33,233 bases of DNA from Spirochaetota bacterium (GTDB lineage: Bacteria; Spirochaetota; UBA4802; UBA5550). Of this stretch, positions 10,391 through 12,231 are shown in pieces (within the stretch, counting starts at the first letter, position 1; each line of letters starts with the position of its first letter). The notes under the pieces were generated by a model that was not told the origin of the DNA, did no database searches, and saw only the letters and a list, made by a program, of their open reading frames with translations. The translations under genes and the position numbers were made by a program. The DNA is taken from positions 1-33,233 of the forward strand of contig JAAYBQ010000282.1 in NCBI GenBank assembly GCA_012730035.1, read 5' to 3'.

Positions 10391-11227
10391 ATGCCCGAAC
10401 TTGAAAGTCATCTCATAGACGATCTCAGCAACCAGAAAGCATTTTTTATTGACATGGACGGGGTCATCAACAAGGGGAACAGCCTTATACCCGGTGCAAA
10501 GAGATTTGTTGACCGGCTAAAAGAGGGCAATCATAAATTTCTTTTTATAACAAACAATTCTTATTACACAGCAACCGACCTGCGCAACCGCCTTGCATCG
10601 ATGGGTCTTGAAGCTGACGAAAACTGCTTTTTTACATCTGCGATGTCAACGGCAAACTTTCTTGAAAACCAGAACTACGGGTGCAGAGCCTATGTCATAG
10701 GCGGCCCCGGACTCCGCCAGGAACTTGAATCTGCGGGCGTACGTATAACAAAAGAAAAACCGGATTACGTAATTGTAGGCGAAACCGAAGAATATGATTA
10801 CATGAGCATAATCGAGGCCACACATCTTATACAGGAGGGAGCCAGGTTCATCGCAACCAATCAGGACATTACCGGTCCCACACCGCGGGGCCCGGTTCCG
10901 GCATGCGGAGCACTGGTCGCGCCAATAGAAAGGGTAACCGGCGTAAAGGCATACTTTCTCGGCAAACCCAATCCCGTGATGATGTACTGGGCCAGAAAAA
11001 AACTCAAAGTCCACACAAGGAACTCTTTCATGATCGGGGATCGCATGGACACCGATATAGTAGGGGGCCTTGAGGCTGGAATGACATGCTGCCTTGTTCT
11101 AACCGGTGTAACATCCCGCCATTCATTAAAAAAATTTCCATACCAGCCCGACTACATATTCGAGTCCGTAGACGAAATTGATCCGGACAGGATACTCTCA
11201 AAGTGGGACAAGCGCTGCAGAAAATAG
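10391..11227 (+). CDS. HAD-IIA (NagD-like) phosphatase
   Basis: 278-residue cytosolic phosphatase of the NagD / p-nitrophenyl phosphatase group. Motif I is FFIDMDGVINKG with Asp21 (nucleophile) and Asp23; motif II is FITNNS (Thr54); motif III is the lysine of YFLGKPNP; motif IV is IGDRMDTDI with Asp217 and Asp222. The C2-type cap lies between motifs II and III, containing GPTPRGPVPACGAL. The ATG at 10391 has GAGG 6 nt upstream and the gene follows dsbD by 9 nt. Family members act on small sugar phosphates, nucleotides or glycerol phosphates; the substrate here cannot be told. Confidence 0.92.
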   Translation: MPELESHLIDDLSNQKAFFIDMDGVINKGNSLIPGAKRFVDRLKEGNHKFLFITNNSYYTATDLRNRLASMGLEADENCFFTSAMSTANFLENQNYGCRAYVIGGPGLRQELESAGVRITKEKPDYVIVGETEEYDYMSIIEATHLIQEGARFIATNQDITGPTPRGPVPACGALVAPIERVTGVKAYFLGKPNPVMMYWARKKLKVHTRNSFMIGDRMDTDIVGGLEAGMTCCLVLTGVTSRHSLKKFPYQPDYIFESVDEIDPDRILSKWDKRCRK

Positions 11228-11442
11228 ACCTGCGGGATAATTCAGGAATAAACCAGGCAAACTCAGCAATATCTCGTTGACAATAAACCTGATTCATCAG
11301 CATTTAAACGTGGCATTAACCCGGCTGTTCCTGAATGGATATTGTCGTGTTTAAACCATAATACCCGTGAGTATGAGGCAGCCCCGGAATTAATATATTC
11401 CGCATACTCCGGATTAAAAATAACAATCACTGGAGTATCGAT

Positions 11443-12231
11443 CTGAAAAATCTTTCGCAAAAAGATATAGACTTTTTCCTTGAAACAACAAAGTCAGCCG
11501 GTGACTGGGCCTTTGAATACCAGAGGCAGAACATAATCATGTGCCGCAAGGATGACCATTCCATAGTAACCCACGCGGACATCTACATCCAGGATCACCT
11601 CGTAAAAAAAATATCCCGCAGGTTCCCTTCGTTTACATTTATCGGTGAAGAGACCCCTGCTGACCGCGATGTGCTTGCCCCGGATAAAGTATCAGTTATC
11701 ATTGATCCCATAGACGGCACCGCGATGTACAGCATGCACCTGCCTATATGGTGTGTATCTATAGGGATATTCTTCGGCTATAAACCGGTTTACGGATTTG
11801 TTTATTCTCCAGGGTGCGGCATGATGTTCCACTCCGACAATGAATGCGCGTGGCTTAACGGAAACAGGCTCCGTGTTGACCCCGACATTGATATCGACAA
11901 CGAAACAAACATTTTCTATTCATCCGAAATCCGGGATGTTAAAATAAATTTCAGCGGCAAGGTCCGCAACCTCGGGTCAACCGCCCTGCACGCCTGCCTT
12001 ACAACAGACAATATGCGCAACAGGACACTTGCCTTTATAGGCAAATCCTATCTGTGGGACTGGGCGGGTGCTATTCCCATAATGGAAAAGGCGGGAGTAA
12101 AGATTTGCTACATAGATGGCCGGGGCCTTGATTATGCCGCGATTATTGAAAACGGCTACGAACTTGAAGACTACGCGATTGCCTATACCTGCAGTGATTT
12201 TGAAAAAATCCGGACGGTTCTATCCAGGTAA
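11443..12231 (+). CDS. Inositol-monophosphatase-family protein (apparent CTG start)
   Basis: About 262 residues. The first ATG in frame is at 11539, but the family's N-terminal helix is clearly encoded upstream (LSQKDIDFFLETTKSAGDWA, then EYQRQN). From the in-frame stop at 11374 to 11539 there is no ATG, GTG or TTG; CTG at 11443 has GGAG (11432-11435) 7 nt before it, so I choose it. Metal-binding motifs are intact: Glu69/Glu70 in GEETP, Asp88-Pro-Ile-Asp91-Gly-Thr, and Asp206 in WDWAGA. This Mg-dependent, Li-sensitive fold includes inositol monophosphatase, fructose-1,6-bisphosphatase IV and CysQ; the substrate is uncertain. It follows the HAD phosphatase after 215 nt and ends 7 nt before the convergent mnmE stop. 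Confidence 0.85.
   Translation: MKNLSQKDIDFFLETTKSAGDWAFEYQRQNIIMCRKDDHSIVTHADIYIQDHLVKKISRRFPSFTFIGEETPADRDVLAPDKVSVIIDPIDGTAMYSMHLPIWCVSIGIFFGYKPVYGFVYSPGCGMMFHSDNECAWLNGNRLRVDPDIDIDNETNIFYSSEIRDVKINFSGKVRNLGSTALHACLTTDNMRNRTLAFIGKSYLWDWAGAIPIMEKAGVKICYIDGRGLDYAAIIENGYELEDYAIAYTCSDFEKIRTVLSR

Follow-up and report, generated by a model that had tools for sequence, protein, structure and literature searches.

Where does translation of a gene begin when its reading frame holds none of the three canonical start codons ahead of its conserved sequence? The question is posed by a gene of the inositol monophosphatase (IMPase) family in a Spirochaetota bacterium. It lies on contig C253, whose full 33,233 nucleotides are called the window below. 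The original prediction, made from the sequence, was that this gene likely starts with CTG. Such starts are rare. The literature gives CUG as 0.024% of bacterial initiation codons, with weak first-position pairing (PMC11497404), and counts two AUG-to-CUG switches among 61,358 ancestral AUG starts (PMC5622118). A Listeria study reports rare CTG, ATT, ATC and ATA starts in conserved genes, puts core genes with rare codons including CTG, or with flexible starts, at under 0.3%, and states that CTG initiates at reduced rates in E. coli (PMC13068326).

Reading frame and candidate start codons

The features of the locus are collected in Table 1. The open frame that follows the TGA covers 11377–12231 and is interrupted by neither stop nor frame break downstream of the start. 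As originally predicted, it contains no ATG, GTG or TTG before 11539, and the CTG, with GGAG at the spacing proposed for it, is in frame; it is the sole in-frame NTG codon between the TGA and ATG 11539. The 96 nt from 11443 to 11539 amount to 32 codons, so that a start at the ATG would indeed cost 32 residues, the first helix included.

Table 1. Features of the IMPase-family gene and its leader in the window
Feature	Position	Strand	Remarks
IMPase-family gene	11443..12231	+	262 codons plus stop, counted from the putative CTG start
In-frame TGA	11374..11376	+	Upstream bound of the open frame
CTG, putative initiation codon	11443..11445	+	Aligned with the ATG column of relatives
GGAG, Shine-Dalgarno-like	11432..11435	+	Spacing of 7 nt to the CTG
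ATG, first canonical start codon	11539..11541	+	Internal to the gene
Hairpin	11404..11438	+	9-bp stem (one G-U), 17-nt loop, extends over the GGAG; within what chance would produce

It had also been proposed that a sequence error, such as an upstream indel, might conceal the true start. Scanning 11377–11470 in all three forward frames revealed zero ATG, GTG or TTG codons. A nearby indel therefore cannot hide a start and this part of the proposal falls, whereas a substitution could.

Other near-cognate codons are present in the frame, namely ATC 11437, ATT 11413 and ATA 11404, and ATT, ATC and ATA starts occur in bacteria according to the Listeria study (PMC13068326). However, the ATC follows the GGAG by just 1 nt, and neither the ATT nor the ATA has a Shine-Dalgarno (SD) 4-mer at normal spacing; these two also lie 10–13 codons before the homologous start and would add residues absent from relatives. 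We regard initiation at any of the three as very unlikely, and the CTG stands, as first suggested, as the best start in the frame.

Comparison with orthologues

A search of 59 genomes yielded 18 close orthologues, not counting the window's own gene, all from related Spirochaetota and 45–62% identical to it. The family set comprised 20 genomes, none of the same genus as the window's genome; close members were found in 16 of the 20 with E no higher than 1e-30, and, among 46 genomes from the order, 19 had the distinct group to which the gene belongs with E no higher than 1e-40 (own genome included in both counts). Sixteen of the 18 orthologues start with ATG and one with TTG (L011), while one is without a canonical start (L004). 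The original prediction had looked to an alignment of homologues for a check, and alignment A1 bears it out: CTG 11443 aligns with the ATG of 14 of the 18 relatives, all 16 ATG starts fall within 2 residues of it, and not one of the 18 starts at the equivalent of 11539. An SD match of 4 nt is absent in 11 of the 16 ATG-starting relatives. L011 (genome G001) was considered as a further start-less orthologue and dropped, its in-frame TTG with AAGG 9 nt upstream being canonical.

Three residues whose codons precede ATG 11539, A19, G20 and Q27, are the same in each of the 19 sequences. Similarity is plain from codon 4 onward, and codons 1–3 vary among relatives. Against the 18 relatives pooled, codons 4–32 differ at frequencies of 0.51/0.42/0.65 at codon positions 1/2/3, compared with 0.32/0.25/0.64 for the rest of the gene. 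The third-position excess, together with the lower differences in the core, indicates that the N-terminal helix is coding, though less conserved than the core.

Properties of the predicted protein

The product matches Pfam family PF00459 at 109.5 bits (cut-off 27), in agreement with the family first assigned to it. None of the NCBIfam equivalog cut-offs (HisN, CysQ, SuhB and others) was reached, the best score being 78.8 bits against the 275.15 required for TIGR02067; because the score lies below every one of these cut-offs, no substrate is assigned. An AlphaFold2 model built from 17 aligned sequences has a mean pLDDT of 91.6 and begins with a high-confidence helix at residues 6–27. Its best PDB match with Foldseek is an inositol monophosphatase (2hhm, E 4.3e-21). 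In a profile search, residues 6 onward of the product align with an IMPase that we take to be the bovine enzyme (2bji), from 2bji residue 9, and the stretch before ATG 11539 would therefore correspond to the first helix that this fold normally has. Orthologue alignment, structural model and profile alignment together back the earlier claim that the N-terminal helix is encoded upstream of 11539.

A gene caller would choose ATG 11539, the first canonical codon, as the start. A protein beginning there would lose the helix as well as A19, G20 and Q27, invariant in 19 of 19 sequences; no orthologue was found with an equivalent start, and the SD-like sequence nearest to this ATG, GAGG, is 12 nt away. 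We consider such a truncated product highly improbable.

Residues E69, E70, D88, D91, G92 and D206 are invariant in 19/19 sequences of alignment A1, and the DPIDGT and WD of the product line up with bovine IMPase. The EE, DPIDGT and WD residues are presumably those that bind metal in this family. With the IMPase family (PF00459; bovine and human IMPase, 2bji and 2hhm; SuhB) the product shares its fold, these motifs and the N-terminal helix; unlike the named members, it belongs to a distinct group with DPIDGTAMFSM and WDWAGA, below the equivalog cut-offs. It departs at only 1 of the 53 sites that are invariant in the other 18 orthologues (range among relatives, 0 to 6), and the tree gives it a branch of median length. 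By these measures the protein is not decaying. Translation of the gene must then begin at some codon, and none is better placed than CTG 11443.

Coding signal and quality of the assembly

The source genome is a 3.3-Mb metagenome bin of 442 contigs, 85.9% complete. Codon usage was surveyed over 206 kb of it, containing 155 genes with an upstream stop, and over a larger sample of 387 kb with 314 such genes. Under a simple rule that admits the canonical three codons only, the starts in the 155-gene set are 145 ATG, 5 GTG and 5 TTG. For coding signal ahead of the first canonical start, the phosphatase gene ranked first in the smaller set (10.8 bits; next, 4.6) and second in the larger (11.5 bits), between L115 (14.4) and L122 (7.6). 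These three genes are the only ones among the 314 to exceed 7 bits; L120 comes next at 6.1 bits, and the region upstream of its ATG looks non-coding. L115:1983-2309 (G000:C70) is a short fragment that is strongly coding by this measure, lacks a usable start and looks broken, with neighbouring pieces apparently in other frames. L122:6240-9158 (G000:C213) is a long open frame cut by an in-frame TAG immediately ahead of 6540, and the sequence on either side of the stop appears to be coding; this looks like a pseudogene, a base error or readthrough. A genome-wide habit of CTG starts finds no support here, the other high scorers L115 and L122 looking broken or TAG-interrupted.

At a frequency of 0.024%, about 0.08 CTG starts would be expected among 314 genes. 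Since they are so rare, an assembly error at a single base competes seriously with a real CTG start: the true genome may have ATG, GTG or TTG at 11443, with the assembled consensus wrong at that base. Each of these codons is one substitution from CTG, ATG is what 14 of the 18 relatives have in this column, and the bin is fragmented, with other broken-looking genes among those sampled. On the other side, only about one error in seven would produce CTG, the most plausible initiator, and the remainder of the gene is without stops or frame breaks. By our own estimate, the prior of an erroneous base in this very codon is similar to that of a CTG start. The codon found is one of the seven non-canonical codons that lie one substitution from ATG, which favours a real start a few-fold; hence we hold initiation at CTG to be probable and a consensus error unlikely.

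A second orthologue without a canonical start

Orthologue L004 (G005:C286), from another genus, likewise has no ATG, GTG or TTG in any frame between the upstream stop and the region of homology. Its 5' end has an in-frame CTG with GGAG 7 nt before it, about 5 residues upstream of the relatives' ATG column in alignment A1. Ahead of its first canonical start the coding signal is 5.4 bits, the fifth highest of 188 genes. In the 232 kb of G005 that hold these 188 genes, four others (L136, L151, L141 and L150) look broken, and the value of L004 as independent proof of a CTG start is weakened by an assembly of this kind.

Among those four, L136:4037-4870 (G005:C268), which from a motif presumably resembles a methylthioadenosine phosphorylase, has a stop right after its apparent ATG and is without a usable canonical start. 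L151:9794, L141:5718 and L150:4067 have their N-terminal parts in another frame, through frameshifts or assembly errors.

It is doubtful that this phosphatase family is prone to non-canonical starts in these spirochaetes, with at least two genera having separately reached GGAG-7-CTG behind unrelated leaders. If that were so, a weak start codon with a good SD sequence would be a tolerated or selected way of keeping the enzyme low.

Leader region and gene order

Of 20,000 shuffles of 11377–11460, 113 placed a core SD 4-mer (AGGA, GGAG or GAGG) 5–9 nt ahead of an in-frame CTG; the GGAG-7-CTG arrangement is thus more than chance. SD matches of at least 4 nt at a spacing of 4–12 precede 115 of 155 gene starts, compared with 367 of 1459 internal CTG codons. 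Because 4-nt matches are also common before internal CTG codons, the GGAG is supportive but weak by itself, and it stands beside the strong evidence for the start, which is the homology of codons 4–32 and the coding signal.

The hairpin that covers the GGAG is present as a single copy in the genome. Its folding gave z -4.66 for a 41-nt piece picked after the hairpin had been seen, and z -1.92 for a 104-nt piece. Stems of at least 9 bp occur in 9/155 gene leaders, and 9/155 fold at least as well. With comparable stems in that many leaders, a regulatory role is not claimed for it. An Rfam scan of the window returned no family at gathering score.

The IMPase gene and mnmE are convergent neighbours, and jag and yidC come next. 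Among the 9 relatives' regions compared, 6 have these three genes convergent with IMPase and no more than 7 kb from it, directly adjacent in two relatives (L092 and L094). In 6 of the 9 regions an ABC ATPase gene, which we take from its sequence to be livF, lies upstream, its end separated from the IMPase homology by between a few and about 30 nt. The best match to the livF-like protein in the window's 85.9%-complete genome is 32% identical. In the window a HAD-IIA hydrolase gene (10391–11227) occupies the upstream position instead, 215 nt from the CTG, and no recognised feature was found in the gap between them (11228–11442). This replacement suggests that the leader of the phosphatase gene is likely new.

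A rearranged leader, with the livF-like neighbour of 6/9 relatives lacking a close match in this genome, could also accompany a correct sequence in which the start was recently lost and expression of the gene has ceased. With an intact frame, the single departure at 53 conserved sites and a correctly spaced GGAG before the CTG, this is the least probable of the explanations weighed, and its chances are close to negligible.

Probable initiation at CTG

The locus probably encodes a complete, working enzyme of the IMPase family, 262 residues long, with CTG 11443 as its initiation codon. The GGAG would pair with the anti-Shine-Dalgarno end of 16S rRNA and set the CUG in the P site, where the initiator tRNA would read it with a first-position mismatch and insert formyl-methionine. 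Initiation is probably weak, and the level of the protein would then probably be low. Because the position is occupied by ATG in most relatives, the CTG probably derives from an ancestral ATG through a base change, and the ancestral leader was probably replaced upon loss of the livF-like upstream neighbour. Further points against initiation at the CTG are that its SD sequence is of 4 nt and lies under a predicted stem, and that the assembly contains two other broken-looking genes (L115 and L122).

With bacterial CTG-start genes the locus has in common an in-frame CTG, a normally spaced SD sequence and the position of the homologues' ATG. No canonical start lies upstream, homology and coding signal reach the CTG, and GGAG is found at 7 nt. 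Unlike CTG-start genes in which initiation was measured, the start here is deduced from sequence, in an organism known from metagenomes alone. A narrow literature search with the one phrase 'CTG start codon' paired with 'spirochet' found nothing, and supports no wider claim.

Conclusions

The phosphatase gene is probably a further case of the rare, already known CTG start, and the understanding of translation initiation is unchanged by it. Callers restricted to ATG, GTG and TTG would report the protein 32 residues short and without its first helix. Conserved genes such as this phosphatase offer a clean route to rare starts, and natural CUG cases in which ATG was clearly the ancestral codon help to show what is required for such a switch to be tolerated.
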